A DNA stretch of 64,000 bases from Herbaspirillum huttiense (lineage in GTDB: Bacteria; Pseudomonadota; Gammaproteobacteria; Burkholderiales; Burkholderiaceae_D), in NCBI RefSeq assembly GCF_004367745.1, contig NZ_CP037993.1, positions 1,984,001-2,048,000 on the forward strand, written 5' to 3'. A model generated the notes under the pieces. It was not told where the DNA came from. It saw nothing but the letters and a program-made list of their open reading frames with translations, and searched no databases. Position numbers and translations under genes: made by a program. This document shows positions 54,936-64,000 of the stretch, piece by piece. Each line of letters opens with the position of its first letter. The first letter of the stretch is position 1.

Positions 54936-54963
54936 TTGAGTTGCAATCCGCCGGTGATAGAAT
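54936..54963 (+). promoter_or_regulatory. Predicted sigma-70 promoter of the type I secretion operon
   Basis: TTGAGT (54936-54941), 16-bp spacer, TAGAAT (54958-54963), in an AT-rich stretch (54780-54985). The predicted leader is about 180 nt. No other gene is seen in the 447-bp gap between htpG and the TolC-like gene. Confidence 0.5.
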
Positions 54964-54986
54964 TGTTTTAACAAAATGGTAACAAA

Positions 54987-55005
54987 TTCGATCAGGCTGA
55001 TCGAA
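54987..55005 (+). promoter_or_regulatory. 19-bp perfect palindrome downstream of the predicted promoter
   Basis: TTCGATCA (54987-54994), GGC, TGATCGAA (54998-55005). Its place about 25-40 bp after the -10 box suits a repressor operator or a 5' mRNA hairpin. Confidence 0.65.
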
Positions 55006-55120
55006 CGGATGTGCAAGCCGGCGCTCCCTCATAAAAAGAACAGGAGTCTCCCCGGCTTGATGACGGGAATCGCAGCGAGGGCTGCCGATTCTTTCCTGGG
55101 ATGCGGGTTGGGTAGGGGAG

Positions 55121-55137
55121 GCCGGTGGGATACCGGC
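55121..55137 (+). promoter_or_regulatory. Hairpin at the translation start region of the TolC-like gene
   Basis: GCCGGT (55121-55126) pairs with ACCGGC (55132-55137) around GGGAT. It directly follows the AGGGGAGG ribosome-binding sequence (55114-55121) and contains the alternative GTG start at 55125, so folding could limit translation. Confidence 0.5.
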
Positions 55138-55148
55138 TGATCGTGTTG

Positions 55149-56789
55149 ATGAGAGTTCTCAAAAGCAAGCGTTTCATACTGGGCGTTTCATTGGGCTTGG
55201 CCGCGCATTCCGCGCCCCAGGCGGCTGACAAGCCGCCAGCCGACGCCGTCATAATGCAAACCACACCGGCCGCGCCGGCCACCTTCGACAACAAACTGGA
55301 TGCTCCGCCGCAAATCCGGCTGGGTGCCGATCCTGCCGGCCCATCGGCGACGGACTACCGCCTGCCGGGTTTGCCGGCCGACACCCCGCCGCCCTCGACC
55401 CAGGATGAAATCCTGCTGTTGCTGCGCCAGTCCGATCCGAGCTTCTCGGGCAATCAGATCGTCCTGCCGCAGATCAGCATCGTCACCGAAGGCGAGACCG
55501 TCCCGGACCTGAGCCTGCGCAGCGTGCTCGACCTGGCGCTCAACAACAGTTACAGCTACGCCGCCACTTCCGCGCAAGCGGACCAGGCGCGCTATGCCTC
55601 CAAGGCCACGGCCGGCCAGCTCGGCCCGACGCTGGACCTGCGGGCGCAGAAGGGCAATGAATATTCTTCGCCGTCCTCGGTGATCGATCCCAATACCGGC
55701 CTGATCCAGCGCGCCTCGTACCACAAGCGCTGGGATGTGACGCTGATCGGCCGCCAGCCCATCTTCGCGCCCGGTTCGTATTACGACTATCGCAAGAGCA
55801 GCTCGCTGGCCGATGCCGCCGACCTGCGCCGCGACGATGCCCGCGAGACCCTGTATTACAACGCCATCAAGGCGTATTACGACGTCATGCGCGCCTACGC
55901 CACGCTGTCGTTCTCGCGCAGCTACGCCCAGCGCATGGGCGCCTTGCTGGATTACATGAGCAAGCGCCTCGAAGGCGGCGGTGCCAGCCGCATCGACTTT
56001 GAACGCGTGCGCGGCCGCTCGCTCACGGCCCAGTCCGCCGTGGCCGAGGCCGAAGGCGCGCTGGAGAGCGCCATGGTGTCGCTGAACCAGATCACCGGCC
56101 GCAAGATCGAGCAGATCGAAGTGCCGGACCACATGATGCCGACCGTGCCGGATACCTCCAAGCTGGCCCTGCAGGATGTCTACGAGACCAACCCCGGCGT
56201 GCGTGCCGCGCGGCGCGATGTGGACGCGGCCAATCAGGAACTGAAGTCGGCGCGCGCCAAGTTCTCGCCCACGCTGGCCCTGGAATGGACCCAGACCAAG
56301 ACCCGCGGTGCAGGCGGTGCCATCGACACCACCGACAACACCTTGCAGCTGACCACCGACCGCCGCCTGATGATGGTGGTGAGCATGAACCTGCTCAATG
56401 GCGGCTCGGACATGTATTACAGCAAGCAGGCCGGTGCCAAGTACGTGGAAAAGAGCAACACCGCGCTCGACCTGGAACGCAAATTGCGTGAGCAGATCGA
56501 GATCAATTACCGCACCCTGGGCGCGGTGAGAAAGCGCATGGAGATTTCGCGCCAGGCCTATCTCACCAATGCCAACGTGGCCGATGTCTTCCTGGAACAG
56601 CTCTCCACCGGCAGCAAGCAATTGCTGGACGTGCTGGACGCCTATCAGCAGGCCTACCAGGCGCGCATGGACTTTGCCAACCTGTTGTTCCAGCAGGCCG
56701 ATATCAGCTATCAGATCCTGCGCAACACCGGTCGCGCATCGGCACTGGAAACCCTGCCCACGCGGGCGGCCAACAAGACGGGGGAATGA
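55149..56789 (+). CDS. TolC-family outer membrane channel of a type I secretion system
   Basis: The 546-residue protein (from the ATG at 55149) has a signal peptide cleaved near SAPQAA/D, then about 80 Pro/Ala-rich residues absent from classic TolC. The TolC-like helical repeats follow: SLRSVLDLALNNSYSYAATS near residue 120 and VYETNPGVRAARRDVDAANQ near 345. The C-terminal half ends with VFLEQLSTGSKQLLDVLDAY. It should form the outer-membrane exit duct. An in-frame GTG at 55125 lies closer to the AGGGGAGG site and is the alternative start. It is the first gene of the operon and overlaps the next by 4 nt. Confidence 0.88.
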   Translation: MRVLKSKRFILGVSLGLAAHSAPQAADKPPADAVIMQTTPAAPATFDNKLDAPPQIRLGADPAGPSATDYRLPGLPADTPPPSTQDEILLLLRQSDPSFSGNQIVLPQISIVTEGETVPDLSLRSVLDLALNNSYSYAATSAQADQARYASKATAGQLGPTLDLRAQKGNEYSSPSSVIDPNTGLIQRASYHKRWDVTLIGRQPIFAPGSYYDYRKSSSLADAADLRRDDARETLYYNAIKAYYDVMRAYATLSFSRSYAQRMGALLDYMSKRLEGGGASRIDFERVRGRSLTAQSAVAEAEGALESAMVSLNQITGRKIEQIEVPDHMMPTVPDTSKLALQDVYETNPGVRAARRDVDAANQELKSARAKFSPTLALEWTQTKTRGAGGAIDTTDNTLQLTTDRRLMMVVSMNLLNGGSDMYYSKQAGAKYVEKSNTALDLERKLREQIEINYRTLGAVRKRMEISRQAYLTNANVADVFLEQLSTGSKQLLDVLDAYQQAYQARMDFANLLFQQADISYQILRNTGRASALETLPTRAANKTGE

Positions 56790-57562
56790 TGGAGGGCGGC
56801 AAGGAACAGAATTTCTGGCCAGGCTTCGTGGACGCGCTGTCCAACGTGGTGCTGGTGATGATCTTCGTGGTGGTGGTGTTCGTGGTGACGCTGTTCTACT
56901 ACTCGCAGAAGCTGGCGCAGATGAAGGTCAGCAAGCTGATCTCGCAGGGCCAGACGCAGGTCGTGGGTGAATCCAAGGCCAGGAAGACCGACACCATTGC
57001 CACCGCCGACAGCACCAGCATCAACAGTGCCGAAACGCCCGGCGAGCGCGAGAAGGCACAGGAAATCGAGCAGCTCAAGCGCGAGGTGGCCAGCCTCAAA
57101 GCCAAGCTGGCCGCGCCGCCCCTGCAGTCCGACAACGGCAGCCTGCGCAGCGCTGCCGCACCCTCCAGCCCCAATGCGATCCAGGTCAAGACCGAACCCA
57201 ACGACAAGGAAGTCGCGCCCGGCCTGCGCATCGATGCCAACGAAAAAGCGGTGACCCTGAACTTCGATGCCGATTCTACCCAGTTGAATGACGAGGGCAG
57301 CAAAGCGCTGGACAAGAGCATCGGCGACTGGGTGCGCCGCGCCAAGTCCAGCCAGGGCAAGATCGTCGTCACCGGCGTGATCGGCAGCGGTGCCTACAGC
57401 GAGAGCCGGCGGCGTGCCTACTATCGCACCGTTGCGGTTCGCAATTACCTGATCGATGCCGGGGTGGACAAGGAACGCGTCACCAGCCGCGTGGCCACCG
57501 ATGAAAACGGCAGCGGCAATGATGCGCGCGTGATCGTGCAATACCAGGCCTCGGCAAAATGA
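56786..57562 (+). CDS. MotB/OmpA-like inner-membrane protein of the secretion operon (SiiA-like)
   Basis: The 258-residue protein has a single N-terminal membrane helix preceded by FWPGFVDALSNVVLVMIF, in which Asp16 sits at the place of the proton-carrying aspartate of MotB, SiiA and ZorB. A coiled coil follows (about 90-115, EIEQLKREVASLKAKL). The C-terminal OmpA-like peptidoglycan-binding domain (about 150-255) has LNFDADSTQLNDEGSKALDK and SESRRRAYYRTVAVRNYL. It overlaps the TolC-like stop (ATGA) and the hlyD-like start (ATGA). With the MotA-like protein downstream it probably forms an ion-driven stator; the role in secretion is inferred from SPI-4. Confidence 0.85.
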   Translation: MMEGGKEQNFWPGFVDALSNVVLVMIFVVVVFVVTLFYYSQKLAQMKVSKLISQGQTQVVGESKARKTDTIATADSTSINSAETPGEREKAQEIEQLKREVASLKAKLAAPPLQSDNGSLRSAAAPSSPNAIQVKTEPNDKEVAPGLRIDANEKAVTLNFDADSTQLNDEGSKALDKSIGDWVRRAKSSQGKIVVTGVIGSGAYSESRRRAYYRTVAVRNYLIDAGVDKERVTSRVATDENGSGNDARVIVQYQASAK

Positions 57563-58932
57563 CGCTCTCGCTCAAGCCCGGCACCGGCCACGGAATCAGT
57601 TCCCGCGGCAAGGGCTTCATGCGCCGCCTGGCACCGCGCCTGGACCGCCGCCTGGGCGAGCTGCAGGCCATGCCGCGTCCGCGCCTGGCAGTGCTGGCCT
57701 GCACGCTGCTGCTGGCCTTGCTGGTGATCTGGTCGATGCTGGCGCCCATCGATATGGTGGTGCGCGGCAGTGGCCGCATCGTCGCCTCCGAACACAACCA
57801 GGTCATCCAGCATCTGGAAGGCGGCATCGTCTCCGCCATCCTGGTGCGCGAGGGCGCGGTGGTCAGGAAGGGCCAGACCCTGATCTCGATTGCCGACGTG
57901 CGTGCCAATGCCGATCTCGGTGAAGGCCGCGTCAAGATCCTCGGCCTGCGTGCCAAGATCGCTCGCCTCTCGGCCGAAGCGGCGGGGGCTGCGAGCCTGC
58001 AGATGCCGGCCGACCTCGACCGCGATGATCCCGCTGTCCAAAGCGAGCAGGCCGCCTTCGCCGCGCGCTCGGCCAAGCTCATGCAGGAAATGTCGGTGCT
58101 GCGTGAACAGGCCGCGCAACGCCAGGCCGAGCTGGGCGAAGCGGTCAGCCGCCAGAAGAGCCAGGCCAGCGAACTGGACCTGGCACAGCGTCAGTACAAG
58201 CTGATCCACAACATGCTCGAACGCAATGCCGCCTCGCAACTGGAAGACATCCAGGCCGCCGCCCGCGTGCAGGATGCGCAGAGCAAGCTCTCGGCCAACG
58301 ATGCCATGATCCCGCGCCTGAAAGCGGCCATCGCCGAATCGCAGGCCAAGATGGGCGAAGCTTCATCGCGCTTCCGTTCGGATGCCCGCGCCGAACTCAC
58401 TGCAGCGGAAACCGAACTGGCGCGCCTGCAGGAAGAAATCAAATCGCGCAACGACCGCGTGTCGCGCTCGGAAGTGAAAGCGCCCATGGATGGCGTGGTC
58501 AACCGCGTGATGATCAATACCGTCGGTGGCGTGGTCCGGCCCGGCGACCCCATCATCGAGATGACCCCCAGCGACGACAAGCTGGTCATTGAAGCCCGCA
58601 TCTCCCCAACTGACCGCGCCGAACTGGCCACCGGTGCCAAGGCGCGCGTGAAGGTCTCGGCCTATGACTACGGCGTGTATGGCGCCATGGAAGGCGTGGT
58701 CACCGAGATCAGCGCCGACACCGTCCCCGATGAAAACAATCCGCGCGGCGAGCGCAGCTACCGCATCAAGATCGCCGTCCAGCGCGGCGACAACGATCTG
58801 CAGCGCAAGCTGGCCCTGATGCCCGGCATGACTGCCAGCGCCGACATCATCGTCGGCCGCCGCACGGTGTGGCAGTACCTGATGTCGCCGCTGTCGCGCT
58901 TCGGCCAGGGTGCCCTGCGGGAGCCGCGATGA
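57559..58932 (+). CDS. HlyD-family periplasmic adaptor (membrane fusion protein) of the type I secretion system
   Basis: The 457-residue protein has a short cytoplasmic basic region, one membrane helix (LAVLACTLLLALLVIWSMLA, about residues 43-62), then the lipoyl half-motif QVIQHLEGGIVSAILVREGA. A long alpha-hairpin (about 125-300) and the second lipoyl/beta-barrel half (VKAPMDGVVNRVMINTVGGV) complete the HlyD/LapC architecture. It bridges the inner-membrane exporter and the TolC-like duct. Its start and stop both overlap neighbours by 4 nt. Confidence 0.93.
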   Translation: MTLSLKPGTGHGISSRGKGFMRRLAPRLDRRLGELQAMPRPRLAVLACTLLLALLVIWSMLAPIDMVVRGSGRIVASEHNQVIQHLEGGIVSAILVREGAVVRKGQTLISIADVRANADLGEGRVKILGLRAKIARLSAEAAGAASLQMPADLDRDDPAVQSEQAAFAARSAKLMQEMSVLREQAAQRQAELGEAVSRQKSQASELDLAQRQYKLIHNMLERNAASQLEDIQAAARVQDAQSKLSANDAMIPRLKAAIAESQAKMGEASSRFRSDARAELTAAETELARLQEEIKSRNDRVSRSEVKAPMDGVVNRVMINTVGGVVRPGDPIIEMTPSDDKLVIEARISPTDRAELATGAKARVKVSAYDYGVYGAMEGVVTEISADTVPDENNPRGERSYRIKIAVQRGDNDLQRKLALMPGMTASADIIVGRRTVWQYLMSPLSRFGQGALREPR

Positions 58933-59063
58933 ACCGCGCCGCACTGCCTGAAGTGCTTTATTGCTCGCCGCAAAGCCACATCCACCAAGGCTTTGCGGCG
59001 GTTGACGTTTTCTGCACCATCCACTTTCCCTGCGTTCTTTTCTCCGGAACCTCGCACGTATGA
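58929..59063 (+). CDS. Possible 44-residue ORF linking hlyD-like and motA-like genes
   Basis: The frame begins at an ATG overlapping the HlyD-like stop by 4 nt (ATGA) and ends at a TGA overlapping the ATG of the MotA-like gene by 4 nt (ATGA). It encodes MNRAALPEVLYCSPQSHIHQ and continues through 24 more residues with several Cys, His and Phe. No family is recognised and codon use is less biased than in the neighbours. The MotA-like gene has no visible Shine-Dalgarno, so translation of this frame could serve to couple the two genes. It may be a coupling leader and not a functional protein. Confidence 0.4.
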   Translation: MNRAALPEVLYCSPQSHIHQGFAAVDVFCTIHFPCVLFSGTSHV

Positions 59064-60730
59064 AAAACCTTCGCCAGTTCTACGCACTTGCCGCCATCCC
59101 GACGCTCCTGCTGCTGTTGGGCGCCTTCCTGTTCCGGGGATTCGTGGGGCATGCGATCCAGATCAATCCCTTCCTGAACCTGTTCATCATCGCGGTGGCG
59201 GTGTTCGGCATTGCGCTGATCTTCTACAACCTGTACCGCGTCAACTGGGAATACGACAAGCTGATCCAGTTCTACGACCGTACCAAGGCCGGCGAATCGA
59301 TGGAAAGCCTGGTGAAGGCGCCTGAATTCGAAGGCACCGAGATCGGCCAGGTGCTGGTGTCCGTGGCCAGCACCAAGGGCCGGCTGACTTCCCGTATCGA
59401 ACAGGAAACCATCGAAGGCTCGCTGCACGACCTGCGCGCGCACCTCGAAGCCAAGACCGAATTCCCGCAATTCCTGACCGGCTTCATGATCGCGCTGGGT
59501 CTGCTGGGTACCTTCATCGGCCTGCTGGAAACCCTGGTCAGCACCGCCGCCCTGATCGATGGCTTCGGCAAGGCCAGCACGGCCGGCGACATGGATGCCT
59601 CCTTCATGCACCTGGTGGCCGACCTGCAAAAGCCGCTGGCCTCGATGGGCACCGCCTTCTCGGCCTCGATGTTCGGCCTGATCGGTTCGCTGGCGCTGGG
59701 CCTGACCCTGACGCCGCTGCGCGCGGCCAGCAAGAAGCTGGTCACGCGCGCCCGCGAATGCATCAGCGACATGGTGCAGCACGTGGTGCATGACATGAGC
59801 GGCCCGGCGGCCACGCAGCGCCAGGGCGTCTCCGAAACCTTCCTCGCCGAATTCCTGCAGGATCTGATGGTGCTGCAGCGCGAATCCATCATGGCCGCGC
59901 GCAACAGTTCGGAGGCCTCGCTGCAGGCCGGCATCAAGCTCGAAGGCCTGAACGACCGCCTCAACAACATCGTCCAGCTCTTCAACGACAGCATGGAAGA
60001 ATCGCGCAGCCTGCGCCAGCTGGTGGCCTTCGGCCCGCGCATGCACGAGACCGCACAGCAGACGCTGGAGGAGATCCGCAACGTCGGCCAGTTGATCAAC
60101 ACCAAGATCACCTCCGCCCGCGATCTCTCCGACAGCCTGTCCTCGCTGGAAGAACGCCTCTCGGTCAATGGCGACATCGCCAACCGCACCTTCGAAGTGA
60201 TGCCGCAGATCGTTTCCACCATCCAGGCCGGCCAGCTGGCGCTGTCCACCGCACTCAGTTCGCTGCAGGCGCAGCAGGGTGAGATCTCCAACATGAACGA
60301 AAAGAATGCGCAGAACATCGCGCAGCTGCCGGCACTGCTGAACCAGATCTCGGTACGCCTGGCCGACGAGATGGGAGCGATCCAGTACCAGGGCGAACTG
60401 CAGGCCACCGTGGCCGCGCGCCTGAACGAACTGGGCAACACCATCGGCGAGAACTCCAGCAACATGGCGCGCGATGCGCTGTCCGCACGCCAGCTGCAGA
60501 TCGACCTGGCCAAGCACATGGCGATGCAGAACGATCGCGTCAAGAACTTGGGCGCCATCCCGCAATCGCTGACCTCCATCACCGAAGCCCTGATGCGCCA
60601 GAACATCAACTGGCAGACCGTCATCGACGAGATGCGTACCGGCCGCCAGACCATGGTCAAGGACCTGCGCCTGGAACTGCGCGAAGCGATCCGCGAAATC
60701 ACCGCCACCAACCGCGGCGGCCAGGCCTGA
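59060..60730 (+). CDS. MotA/TolQ/ExbB-like channel protein with long helical tail (SiiB-like)
   Basis: The 556-residue protein has two N-terminal helices (about 9-27 and 34-57), a cytoplasmic segment, and a MotA/ExbB-type pair of helices (FLTGFMIALGLLGTFIGLLE, about 138-157, and GTAFSASMFGLIGSLALGLT, about 196-215). About 340 residues of Gln/Leu/Asn-rich helix then form a long cytoplasmic coiled-coil tail. The same layout is seen in SiiB and in ZorA. Together with the MotB/OmpA-like protein it should make a proton or sodium channel. It starts within the stop of the 44-codon ORF with no Shine-Dalgarno. The ABC exporter gene follows after 29 bp. Confidence 0.87.
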   Translation: MKNLRQFYALAAIPTLLLLLGAFLFRGFVGHAIQINPFLNLFIIAVAVFGIALIFYNLYRVNWEYDKLIQFYDRTKAGESMESLVKAPEFEGTEIGQVLVSVASTKGRLTSRIEQETIEGSLHDLRAHLEAKTEFPQFLTGFMIALGLLGTFIGLLETLVSTAALIDGFGKASTAGDMDASFMHLVADLQKPLASMGTAFSASMFGLIGSLALGLTLTPLRAASKKLVTRARECISDMVQHVVHDMSGPAATQRQGVSETFLAEFLQDLMVLQRESIMAARNSSEASLQAGIKLEGLNDRLNNIVQLFNDSMEESRSLRQLVAFGPRMHETAQQTLEEIRNVGQLINTKITSARDLSDSLSSLEERLSVNGDIANRTFEVMPQIVSTIQAGQLALSTALSSLQAQQGEISNMNEKNAQNIAQLPALLNQISVRLADEMGAIQYQGELQATVAARLNELGNTIGENSSNMARDALSARQLQIDLAKHMAMQNDRVKNLGAIPQSLTSITEALMRQNINWQTVIDEMRTGRQTMVKDLRLELREAIREITATNRGGQA

Positions 60731-60759
60731 TCGCAGCCTGACGACGAACGCCACGCACC

Positions 60760-62463
60760 ATGAACGCCAGCGAACAGGTCCACATCGATCAGCCGCAAGT
60801 CCGCACGGACCTGCGCGCTGATCCCACTTACCTGACGCTGCTGCGCGCCTATGGCAGCCGCTTCGTCGAGATCATCGTGGCCGGCATCCTGGTCAATCTG
60901 CTGGGCCTGCTGATGCCGCTGTATTCGCGGCTGATCTACGACAAGGTGCTGGGCAACCATATCCCGGAAACGCTCTGGGCGCTGACGCTGGGCATGCTGC
61001 TCTTCATCGGGCTGGAGCTGGTGTTGCGCATCATCCGCGTGTATTACACCGAGCAACTGGCCGGCCGCCTGGATGGCGAGTTCGATGAAGTTTCGGCACG
61101 CCGCCTGCTGACGGCCAAGGTACAAGCACCGGTGGGCGTGGTGCTGGCGCGTTACCGTGATCTCTCGGCGGCGCGCGACCTGCTCTCGTCCAACTACATG
61201 CTGCTGCTGGTGGACCTGCCGTTCCTCGCGCTGTACCTGGTGGTGCTGGGCCTCATCGGCGGCCACATGGTGTGGGTGCTGCTGGTGGGCGGGGCGCTGC
61301 TGGTCGGCATGCAGCTGCTGCTCAAAGTCCCGGCCAATGACTATGCGCATGCGGCCATGAAGGCCGGTACCGGCAAGGTGGACAAGCTGGCCAGCATCGT
61401 CTACGGCATGGAAACGCTCAAGACCACGCCGCTGCAGGACCGCCTCATGCGCGCCTTCCTGGCCGATGCCGGTGCCAATGCCGTGGCCCAGGCCAAGAGC
61501 CGCTTCTGGATGAATACCAGCTATGCCATCTCCACCGTGGGCTACACCTTCATTGCGGTGGCCACGCTGGTGGTGGGCGTCTATCTGGTGGAAGACAACC
61601 TGCTCACCGTCGGCGCGCTGATTGCCTGCTCGCTGCTGATCAGCCGCGCCACCACGGTGCTGTCGTCGCTGGCGGCACTCCTGGGCCGCATCGAGATGTT
61701 CCGCCGCGCCCGAGCCGAATTTGACCAGCTGTTCGAAGAGCAGAAAGAGACACCGACCGCCGATGTGCTGCGCCAGGAAATGCGCGGCCTGATCCAGGTC
61801 GGCAATCTGCTGCTGCACCTGGACCAGAAGGAAAACGCCACCTTGAAAAACATCTCGCTGACCATCCAGCCCGGCGAGAAGGTGGGCCTGGTCGGGCGTT
61901 CCGGCTCGGGCAAGTCGACGCTGCTGCGTGCCCTGGCCGGCCTGCACCAGCCCGACGAAGGGCATGTCCTCATCGATGGCGTGGCCGTGACGGCCTATGC
62001 CCCCGAGGTGCGGATGCGCTGCATCGGCTTCAAGCCGCAGGAACCCTTCCTGTTCGATGGCACGGTAGCGGCCAACATCTTCGTGGGCGACCGCGTCCCG
62101 GGGCAGGTCTATGAAGCGGCGCTGGCGGTGTCCTCACTGGATGACCTGATCGCGCGCGGCGAGCTGCGCCTGGACCAGGCCATCAAGGCCCCCGGCAATC
62201 TCTCCGGCGGCCAGCGCCAGATGGTGGCACTGGCGCGCGTGATCGCCTGCACCCCGCGCATCCTGCTGCTGGACGAACCGACTACCGGCGTGGACCAGCA
62301 GACCGAGGCCCGCATCATCGAGCGACTGGCGGCGTATGCCGGCCCGCGCACGCTGGTGGTGGCCACCCACAGCCCGGCGCTGTTGCGCCACGTGGACCGC
62401 ATCATCGTCATCGACGGCGGGCGCATCGTGGCAGACGGACCGCGCGACCAGATTTTGCAGTGA
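60760..62463 (+). CDS. Type I secretion ABC exporter (permease-ATPase)
   Basis: The 567-residue protein has a five- or six-helix transmembrane domain (about 30-320: LLGLLMPLYSRLIYDKVLGN, then LLLVDLPFLALYLVVLGLIG). The ATPase domain has Walker A GRSGSGKST (379-387), signature NLSGGQRQ and Walker B ILLLDEPTTGV. It lacks the N-terminal C39-like domain of LapB/HlyB exporters, so length is short for the family. It should drive one-step export of the RTX protein encoded next. Stop at 62461-62463. Confidence 0.93.
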   Translation: MNASEQVHIDQPQVRTDLRADPTYLTLLRAYGSRFVEIIVAGILVNLLGLLMPLYSRLIYDKVLGNHIPETLWALTLGMLLFIGLELVLRIIRVYYTEQLAGRLDGEFDEVSARRLLTAKVQAPVGVVLARYRDLSAARDLLSSNYMLLLVDLPFLALYLVVLGLIGGHMVWVLLVGGALLVGMQLLLKVPANDYAHAAMKAGTGKVDKLASIVYGMETLKTTPLQDRLMRAFLADAGANAVAQAKSRFWMNTSYAISTVGYTFIAVATLVVGVYLVEDNLLTVGALIACSLLISRATTVLSSLAALLGRIEMFRRARAEFDQLFEEQKETPTADVLRQEMRGLIQVGNLLLHLDQKENATLKNISLTIQPGEKVGLVGRSGSGKSTLLRALAGLHQPDEGHVLIDGVAVTAYAPEVRMRCIGFKPQEPFLFDGTVAANIFVGDRVPGQVYEAALAVSSLDDLIARGELRLDQAIKAPGNLSGGQRQMVALARVIACTPRILLLDEPTTGVDQQTEARIIERLAAYAGPRTLVVATHSPALLRHVDRIIVIDGGRIVADGPRDQILQ

Positions 62464-62490
62464 CGCTGCCCGGCAGGGTCACCCCGAACC

Positions 62491-62562
62491 AGATTCAGAT
62501 TCAGATTCAGATTCAGATTCAGATTCAGATTCAGATTCAGATTCAGATTCAGATTCAGATTC
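62491..62562 (+). repeat. (AGATTC)12 hexanucleotide tandem repeat
   Basis: Twelve perfect AGATTC units (72 bp) fill most of the 131-bp gap between the exporter stop and the RTX start codon. No variation is seen between units. In frame with the RTX gene it would read Gln-Ile repeats, but a TAG at 62583-62585 closes that frame before the ATG, so the repeat is non-coding. A copy-number change would alter the spacing or leader RNA, not the reading frame. Confidence 0.97.
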
Positions 62563-62594
62563 GACATCCGAACGATCTTCGATAGCGAGGAAAC

Positions 62595-64000
62595 ATGGCA
62601 ACCGCAAGCTCATCACAAGCGAACTCCGCGGACAAGGTAGCAGGACCCGTGCGCGTGGTCATGCCCGACCAGGCCGGCAGCTTCCAGGTCAGCGCCAACC
62701 GCGCGGCCGTACAGCACGTGCAGGTGGTCGACGTGGACATGGTGCTGCACATGGCCGACGGCACCAAGGTGGTGCTGGCCGGCGGGGCCATGGAAGCCAT
62801 GGACGACAAGTCCAAGGTCAGGTTCGCCGACACCAGCGCCGATACCGGCAAGCTGCTCGATACCGTGGGCAAGATCTCGCTCAAGCCGAACGACCAGTCG
62901 CGCGTGCTCAATTCCGATCCGGTCGCCTCTGCGCCCAACGTGGCCCCGGCCCAGCAGGTCACGGTGGACCGCAACTCGGCCAGCGTCGGCAGTGAAGGCG
63001 CGACCCAGTTCGCCCAGATCATCAGTGACAATGCCGCCTCGCTGACCAGCAGCAGCGGCACCGGCAAGACCGCCAATTCCACCGGCCCGCTGACGGCCGG
63101 CGACACCAGCCATTCAACCGTGACCAGCACGGCGGCCGCCGCAGCGGCCTCGCAGTCGCAGCCGACCACGCAACCGGTCCAGCCGCAATCGGTGATTGCG
63201 CAGACCGCCAATCCCAACGCCAACGAAGCGCCGGTCAAGCCGGTGGAGCCGCAGTTGCCCCCGGAACGTCCGGGCAGCAAGCCATCCACCATCGTGGTCG
63301 ATCCCTCGCAACCGTCGATGGCGATCAAGCTGGTCAACCTGGCCACTACCACGCAGACCGGCGACACGCTCTTGGGCAGCGGCGGCATTCCGGTCTCGGC
63401 CACCGACGCCGGCCTGCCGCTGCAGTTCAGCACCCAGGTCATCAATGCGCCCGACAGCGTGCATACAATTTACGCAGCGGGCAACAATGCCGGCACCTTC
63501 ATCAAGGTGTTCGACGTCACCATCACCGGCAATGGCACTGTGCTGTCGGTGACGGTCTCGGGCGTGCCGGCGGGGATGTCCATCGTCAACGGTACCGACC
63601 TTGGGGGCGGACGCTTCCAGATGACGGTGGCGGCCGGCCAGACCGACTTCCCGTTACAGTTCCAGTACAGTACGGTGGAAGCCAATTCAGCCTCACCGGT
63701 ACACCAGGCCTTCGATCTGAGCTTCAGTACCGTGGTGGCCACCTCCAATGGCCAGCTCACCCTCAACGACACGCGCCACGTGGCCATCAAGGATGCCACC
63801 GGCTATGGCGACCTGAGCTATCTTGATCCGGCCACCGGCGACCCGGTGCTGGTGCTGCCGGCCCAGGGCCTGCCGCACGAAATCCATGCCGGCAACGGCG
63901 GTGTGACGGTCTATGGCAGCAATGCCAATGACCTGCTCTACGGCGGCAGCGGCAACGACGTGCTCATCGGCGGGACCGGCAATACCTTCTTCCAGGGCGG
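62595..64000 (+). CDS. Large RTX-type secreted protein, probable adhesin (N-terminal part only)
   Basis: The frame is open from the ATG at 62595 (GCGAGG 4-9 nt upstream) to the window end, 468 codons with no stop. Residues 1-130 form an N-terminal module (VRVVMPDQAGSFQVSANRAA and a VDMVLHMADGTKVVLAGGAM strand-rich part). A Ser/Thr/Ala/Gln/Pro-rich linker follows (about 130-240), then beta-sandwich-like repeats (about 245-430). RTX nonapeptides appear near residues 436-468 (SNANDLLYGGSGNDVLIGG), which bind calcium after export. It is the substrate of the preceding exporter by position. No classic LapG site (TAAG) is seen, only STAAAAAA. The C-terminal secretion signal lies outside the window. 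Confidence 0.88.
   Translation, partial: MATASSSQANSADKVAGPVRVVMPDQAGSFQVSANRAAVQHVQVVDVDMVLHMADGTKVVLAGGAMEAMDDKSKVRFADTSADTGKLLDTVGKISLKPNDQSRVLNSDPVASAPNVAPAQQVTVDRNSASVGSEGATQFAQIISDNAASLTSSSGTGKTANSTGPLTAGDTSHSTVTSTAAAAAASQSQPTTQPVQPQSVIAQTANPNANEAPVKPVEPQLPPERPGSKPSTIVVDPSQPSMAIKLVNLATTTQTGDTLLGSGGIPVSATDAGLPLQFSTQVINAPDSVHTIYAAGNNAGTFIKVFDVTITGNGTVLSVTVSGVPAGMSIVNGTDLGGGRFQMTVAAGQTDFPLQFQYSTVEANSASPVHQAFDLSFSTVVATSNGQLTLNDTRHVAIKDATGYGDLSYLDPATGDPVLVLPAQGLPHEIHAGNGGVTVYGSNANDLLYGGSGNDVLIGGTGNTFFQG

Follow-up and report, generated by a model that had tools for sequence, protein, structure and literature searches.

A type I secretion system (T1SS) operon with a built-in MotA/MotB-like pair was confirmed in a 64,000-nucleotide stretch of the Herbaspirillum huttiense genome (the window, G000:C1:1984001-2048000; G000 is the source genome, one contig of 5.69 Mb). 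We propose, with a probability of about 0.6, that the pair forms a 5:2 motor driven by the proton motive force (PMF), which would control retention or release of the T1SS adhesin through an N-terminal domain (N-domain) of the adhesin, without proteolysis. The motor unit and the shared N-domain recur together in distant bacteria, suggesting that a motor, and not a cutting enzyme, controls whether the adhesin is held or released.

Organization of the operon

The gene order was TolC, MotB-like, HlyD, MotA-like, ATP-binding cassette (ABC) exporter and RTX-repeat adhesin, with all genes on the (+) strand. Coordinates are window positions.

55125..56789 (+): TolC-like outer-membrane duct, 554 aa; OEP PF02321 E=1.3e-38, TIGR01844 E=2.4e-43 (below cut-off)
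56786..57562 (+): MotB/SiiA-like subunit, 258 aa; single transmembrane (TM) helix with Asp16, linker, periplasmic domain
Residues 146-256 of the MotB-like subunit: OmpA/SiiA-PD-like periplasmic domain with invariant Arg209, Arg214 and Arg219
57559..58932 (+): HlyD-type periplasmic adaptor, 457 aa; TIGR01843 E=8.1e-107, 357.8 bits vs cut-off 208.65
59060..60730 (+): MotA/TolQ-like pore subunit, 556 aa; 4 TM helices, then tail
Tail of the MotA-like subunit: cytoplasmic, ~300 aa, predicted helical at low confidence
60760..62463 (+): T1SS ABC exporter, 567 aa; TIGR03375 E=5.9e-140 (below cut-off), ABC_tran E=6.9e-33
62595..64000 in the window, gene continuing to window-equivalent 70628 (+): RTX-repeat adhesin, 2,677 aa; HemolysinCabind E=2.1e-21
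62658..62909 (+): adhesin N-domain, common to adhesins of other motor-bearing T1SS operons

The six parts which an earlier reading of the window (the sequence-only reading) had listed were confirmed. The ABC exporter has no N-terminal domain, its TIGR03375 match starting at model position 140; some related operons encode longer ABC proteins, of 658-726 aa. The adhesin gene overruns the window by 6.6 kb (L002:596-8629); its product consists of an N-terminal part followed by ~31 repeats, mostly of 61-68 aa, with 14 GGxGxD motifs and an isoelectric point of ~4.05.

Distribution of the operon and the pair

A total of 84,980 species genomes were scanned with the MotA pore domain, at least 420 relatives were detected, and the best 80 loci were analyzed. 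The order MotB-HlyD-MotA with an HlyD-type adaptor was found in 38 of these best 80 (operon loci), with TolC upstream of MotB in 34/38. They included seven Herbaspirillum genomes, Limnohabitans, Methylobacillus, Methylovorus, Paucibacter, Ideonella and Aquabacterium, and also Magnetospirillum, other Rhodospirillales, Pseudomonas sp. IPO3778 and one metagenome-assembled genome (MAG) of Desulfobulbaceae. Among the matches listed, the closest named relatives of the window MotA-like protein were from Herbaspirillum (H. aquaticum, 98% over 250 aa). The RTX and ABC genes, where found, were downstream of MotA, with the exception of loci around Paucibacter, Ideonella and Aquabacterium and in Maritimibacter, where they were upstream of TolC, and of L109, which had the ABC gene in front and the RTX gene behind.

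Among the other 42 loci, four (L094, L101, L112 and L134) adjoined an N-domain adhesin. L112 (Achromobacter pulmonis) displayed the order TolC-ABC-HlyD-BIg adhesin-MotB-MotA, and HlyD was not found in L094. The remaining 38 had no T1SS within the 6-21 kb examined, and two of these (L156 and L159) also lacked MotB.

The order sample of 300 genomes gave 21 matches at E<=1e-3; the neighbourhoods of all 21 were examined, and the pair together with a T1SS was found only in G000, G025, G072 and G180. The same-genus genome G178 had no MotA match. In the class sample (369 genomes) there were 24 matches at E<=1e-8, with a T1SS only in G000 and none within the 3-20 kb examined in the 23/24 other matching genomes. 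Therefore, the operon has a patchy distribution, and the common form is a pair that lacks a T1SS. No relative was detected in the viral contigs scanned, and the plasmid scan gave only two matches, from Sinorhizobium, at 34% identity.

A second motor-T1SS locus of the source genome (L038:7792-10491 (-), corresponding to G000:C1:3485791-3488490) was decayed; an 899-aa frame starts as an HlyD N-terminus and continues as MotA-like and adhesin-like sequence, and an N-domain fragment adjoins it. At locus L213 of G178 a relict MotB, an N-domain fragment and TolC were left. The motor T1SS of G180 (L036, L214-L215; G180:C16) has two MotB-like genes. Another, T1SS-free pair recurred in Burkholderiales (L039-L052), in which a large MotA-like frame (~675-1,120 aa) accompanies a MotB-like one of ~215 aa.

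Phylogeny of the MotA-like proteins

In the FastTree analysis (107 tips), 41 T1SS-linked MotAs clustered together with that of L112 in one exclusive clade with a support of 0.997, and IQ-TREE gave an ultrafast bootstrap of 93 for the same 42 MotAs. All members (42/42) were T1SS- or adhesin-linked, and they came from α-, β- and γ-proteobacteria and Desulfobulbaceae. The relatives outside the clade were MotA-MotB pairs without T1SS; the sister branch in this tree (L156 and L159) had no MotB frame in 10-11 kb. Ten short, duplicate or weak rows (L038, L101, L103, L106, L118, L134, L158, L180, L182 and L183) had been left out of the tree, and L027 was never in the alignment. The alignment profile was built from T1SS members, which biases the score towards them but not by itself the grouping.

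The sequence-only reading had held that broad occurrence of the pair without T1SS genes would refute it. The outcome was mixed: T1SS-free relatives are common, as the class sample indicated, yet they lie outside the 42-member clade, and on that ground the objection that the idea is refuted by them was rejected. A chance neighbourhood of the pair and the T1SS genes was rejected by synteny and the tree.

The N-terminal domain of the adhesin

A long RTX frame was present in 36/39 operon loci, six of the 36 being cut by the locus edge. The 30 complete adhesins and that of the window all (31/31) carried an N-terminal domain of ~75 residues with the core VxDVDLVL...DG...L..GA..A. A profile (A10) was built from 25 of these N-domains, some of them closely related; in leave-one-out analysis E was ~3e-14 or better for 24/25 and 6e-4 for L094. 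Against the 17,941 open frames of 127 loci, A10 had 38 matches, of which 37 were in operon loci and one in the decayed own copy L038. The 37 represent 37/46 operon loci; among these 46 are two duplicates and a locus that occurs twice. No match was obtained in the non-operon loci of the 127, including the two other T1SS of the source genome.

The N-domain was found in 5/300 genomes of the order sample, namely the four with a motor T1SS and G178, in which it adjoins the relict MotB (4/4 motor-T1SS genomes vs 1/296 others, Fisher p=1.5e-8), and in 1/369 genomes of the class sample, only G000. In a blind test, in which the adhesins were not part of the profile, it was detected in 5/7 operon genomes, in open frames of 1,343 to 6,748 aa; the two misses (L122 and L141) were MAGs. 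It was detected in none (0/22) of the genomes in which a relative of the pair is not near a T1SS (22 of the 38 such loci were given). The N-domain had no match in the PDB at E up to 10. In G180, a 9,542-aa open frame opening with an N-domain is located upstream of the motor T1SS, with one 665-aa gene between them.

The MotB-like subunit

A single hydrophobic helix (core 21-39) is present in the MotB-like protein and opens with the motif FWPGFVDALSN including Asp16. This residue, singled out as the key Asp before the present analysis, was invariant in all 33 aligned operon MotBs (33/33; the window and 32 loci), together with W11, P12, G13, V15, N20, F27, R214 and R219. An Asp kept in the TM helix matches a feature of the 5:2-motor superfamily (MotAB/ExbBD/TolQR). 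The motif [FY]WPG[FY]VD was present in 37/38 operon loci, the exception (L102) being truncated at a contig end.

The predicted structure of the periplasmic domain displayed the fold of the SiiA periplasmic domain (SiiA-PD), which was the best match by VIA-align among 978 aligned PDB chains and the second by E-value in Foldseek. R209, R214 and R219 were invariant among 29 aligned periplasmic domains, with a spacing of five residues. The peptidoglycan-binding models PRK09039 of NCBI also matched the window MotB, with a score below the cut-off (E=1.2e-10). Because of the SiiA-PD fold, the analogy with SiiAB is better supported than the sequence-only reading could know; what stood of the likeness was this fold and the conservation of the pair within a T1SS/adhesin operon, but the link at the sequence level is weak.

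The MotA-like subunit and its tail

The MotA-like protein has four hydrophobic regions and the MotA/TolQ pore fold. The positions invariant in 33 sequences include P14, G147-F152, G154, P192, M196, A199-S201, S203, G206 and S210. Conserved polar residues in the TM3/TM4 region are Thr151, Ser201 and Ser203; by comparison with ExbB/TolQ, Thr151 and Ser203 would correspond to the conserved TM3 and TM4 proton-path positions. Assignment to flagellar MotAB by Pfam was rejected (MotA_ExbB, 14.2 bits vs cut-off 22.9).

Counted from the beginning of the TM3 motif, the C-terminal portion comprised 277-593 residues (median 408) in 38 T1SS-linked MotAs and 185-255 residues (median 238.5) in 36 other MotAs. 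Six of the 42 loci without HlyD (L094, L101, L112, L134, L158 and L159) were excluded from this comparison beforehand.

LapG and the other T1SS of the genome

Peptidase_C93 (LapG family) had 0 matches in the source genome and none in 25/35 operon genomes, which included the source genome and all seven other Herbaspirillum; five operon genomes (L090, L097, L102, L122 and L125) were omitted from this search. Among 14 control genomes, Caulobacter alone matched. The [TAP]AAG cleavage site did not occur in the first 300 aa of the window adhesin and was present in 4/31 adhesins.

The source genome also has two other T1SS loci, in which ABC proteins of 710 and 738 aa are accompanied by large frames containing GGxGxD. 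A MotA/MotB-like pair is absent from both, and the pair is therefore dispensable for RTX export as such.

Repeat tract upstream of the adhesin gene

62490..62562 (no strand): (CAGATT)12.2, a perfect hexanucleotide tract located after the ABC stop and before the adhesin start

The tract sits in a 131-bp gap upstream of the adhesin start. In the H. aquaticum locus L086 it is shorter and the gap is 101 bp, and L080 (H. frisingense) has no tract. Length-variable control of adhesin expression by this tract is possible.

Proposed mechanism and alternatives

The observed basis of the proposal consists of the genes and their order, the Asp of the MotB TM helix, the polar residues of MotA TM3/TM4 and the co-conserved MotA tail and N-domain. 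The operon would build a T1SS with its own ion-driven motor of the 5:2 type, composed of the MotA/TolQ-like pore subunit and an SiiA-like MotB subunit, whose predicted SiiA-PD-like domain would anchor it to peptidoglycan. The adhesin would be exported C-terminus first through the ABC/HlyD/TolC conduit; the N-domain would thus be the last part to leave and could remain where the conduit crosses the periplasm. At that point the PMF-powered motor, itself attached to the cell wall, would decide whether the N-domain is held, with the adhesin displayed, or let through, with the adhesin released. The MotA tail probably touches the exporter on the cytoplasmic side. Such a motor would serve as the retention switch in place of LapG-type proteolysis. 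The 5:2 assembly, the ion flow and their effect on retention are what we infer, and the earlier interpretation, that ion flow controls export or retention of the adhesin, was partly supported.

Several results weigh against this proposal. The N-domain was also found in two orphan proteins of the source genome, around which the 10-12 kb examined contained no T1SS genes. A LapG-family protein was present in 10/35 operon genomes, therefore proteolysis is not excluded everywhere and the LapG argument is weaker than hoped. The SiiA structure 6qvp was reached by sequence only at E=0.29 with profile A7 and was not among the matches of profiles A2, A5, A8, A9 and A11. The model of the MotA tail was poor (predicted local distance difference test, pLDDT, ~50), and Foldseek with the MotA model gave no match below E=0.001. 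The support of the MotA clade dropped in reruns with the short rows restored (115 tips, all left-out rows back except L103 and L106). Under LG, the clade comprising all 45 T1SS-linked rows (support 0.969) also took in the weak fragments L182 and L183, and the original 42 rows contained no non-T1SS member (0.866); under WAG, the 45 rows were exclusive with a support of 0.117, and the original 42 had 0.811.

The orphan proteins are encoded at L211:4402-5304 (-) and L212:5465-7888 (+) and are ~300 and 807 aa long, with the N-domain followed by a hydrophobic and Gly-rich stretch. It is possible that they are extra substrates of the motor T1SS.

Alternatively, the motor might assist export, with the proton flow pulling or unfolding a very large substrate through the conduit and no role in retention. 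The pair is embedded between exporter genes and the substrates are very large, up to the 9,542-aa open frame near one such T1SS, which would fit this explanation; however, the two other T1SS of the source genome handle RTX-containing substrates (one of at least 2,381 aa, the other of 1,240 aa) without a pair, and a section of a review reports that SiiE secretion continues in Salmonella upon SiiAB loss (PMC12607715). We regard export assistance as unlikely. Somewhat less probable still is that the main role of the pair is to tether the T1SS to the cell wall or, as a gate or reporter, to sense the PMF, performing no mechanical work on the adhesin. The peptidoglycan-binding fold predicted for the periplasmic domain argues for such a role, as does the invariant Arg triplet, given that SiiA requires two Arg five residues apart (R162 and R167) for peptidoglycan binding according to a section of the same review (PMC12607715), provided that the residues correspond. 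A mere anchor, however, would have no need of a pore subunit in which Thr151 and Ser203 are conserved, of an invariant Asp or of a long tail.

That the pair is an unrelated system, such as a Zorya-like defence or a general stator, located in the operon by chance, appears very improbable. It has weak similarity to ZorA/ZorB and its T1SS-free relatives are common, but the operon members form their own clade, the pair genes are interleaved with T1SS genes across many taxa and the adhesin N-domain tracks the pair. Motor-controlled retention or release is thus the reading we prefer. A bolder form of it, advanced tentatively and with more doubt than confidence, is that these operons represent an undescribed, widespread T1SS branch in which a 5:2 proton motor acts directly on the N-domain as a protease-free reversible latch and the long cytoplasmic tail senses what state the ABC exporter is in. 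This might be a third way, in addition to LapD/LapG proteolysis and two-partner anchoring, of controlling adhesin display, with SiiAB as an outlying case.

A passage of a 2026 paper states that functional analogues of LapDG are still to be identified, with SiiE as an example (PMC13090378), and part of a review calls the SiiAB mechanism unclear (PMC12607715). In the available excerpt of a T1SS review (PMC8277102), SiiA, SiiB, MotA, a proton channel and a retention module were not found. The wider motor-T1SS family was not described in the titles and abstract openings listed from the open-access literature on SiiAB and SiiE, ZorAB and ExbBD, MotAB with a T1SS or giant adhesin, and the Herbaspirillum RTX adhesin, and it is new only as far as open-access literature searches reach. 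With this family, retention can be tested in organisms other than Salmonella, using its defined motor clade and the adhesin domain inherited along with it. The proposal would, in addition, give a possible role to one group among the non-flagellar MotA/TolQ relatives; a section of a 2025 survey, which may or may not have sampled this group, gives some of these relatives as of unknown function (PMC12505986).

Comparison with known systems

The N-domain has a weak likeness to the BapA prefix-like domain (NF033677 / PF22783), which matched 13/25 and 5/25 N-domain members, respectively, at E up to 0.1 (best E-values 2e-4 and 8e-4). However, the N-domain of the window reached 20.7 bits vs the NCBIfam cut-off of 35 and had no Pfam match. 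With the LapA-type adhesins controlled by LapD/LapG, the system shares a large T1SS adhesin whose N-terminal domain could hold it in the conduit; it differs in the source genome lacking a LapG-family protein and the adhesin lacking the cleavage site in the region searched.

In Zorya, ZorA has a long C-terminal tail and a MotB-like partner. The MotA-type pore fold is common to ZorA and the window MotA-like subunit, and to this extent the comparison drawn in the sequence-only reading held, but the scores of the pair were far too low (ZorA, 20.8 bits vs 500; ZorB1, 14.2 bits vs 400) and the pair is embedded in a T1SS operon. Membership in Zorya was rejected. The T1SS-free MotA-MotB pairs (Acidocella, Devosia, Acidiphilium and others) are the nearest MotA pore-domain relatives outside the clade, and WPG[FY]VDAL occurred in the MotB frame of 32/36 of their loci having one. 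They differ from the operon pairs in having no T1SS in the DNA examined, a shorter MotA tail and no N-domain in the 22 genomes of the blind test.

One of the closest known systems is SiiA/SiiB with SiiC-F of Salmonella pathogenicity island 4 (SPI-4), for which the original papers are reportedly Wille 2014 and Kirchweger 2019. In both systems a MotB-like and MotA-like pair lies inside a T1SS/giant-adhesin operon, the MotB-like domain of the window has SiiA-PD as its best VIA-align match, and the source genome, like the SiiE system, has no LapG found. SiiAB is described, in the sections available, as a proton channel governing SiiE retention (PMC6272769, PMC12607715), and part of another paper counts it among the 5:2 motors (PMC12204202). 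With SPI-4 gene assignments taken from parts of PMC6272769 and PMC12607715, the order is siiA-siiB-siiC-siiD-siiE-siiF vs TolC-MotB-HlyD-MotA-ABC-adhesin in the window; SiiF has an N-terminal C39-like domain, whereas the window ABC exporter has no N-terminal domain, and SiiE has bacterial immunoglobulin-like (BIg) repeats in place of RTX. The window operon family is a separate and broader variant compared with SiiAB, with its own gene order, a long MotA tail and the adhesin N-domain.

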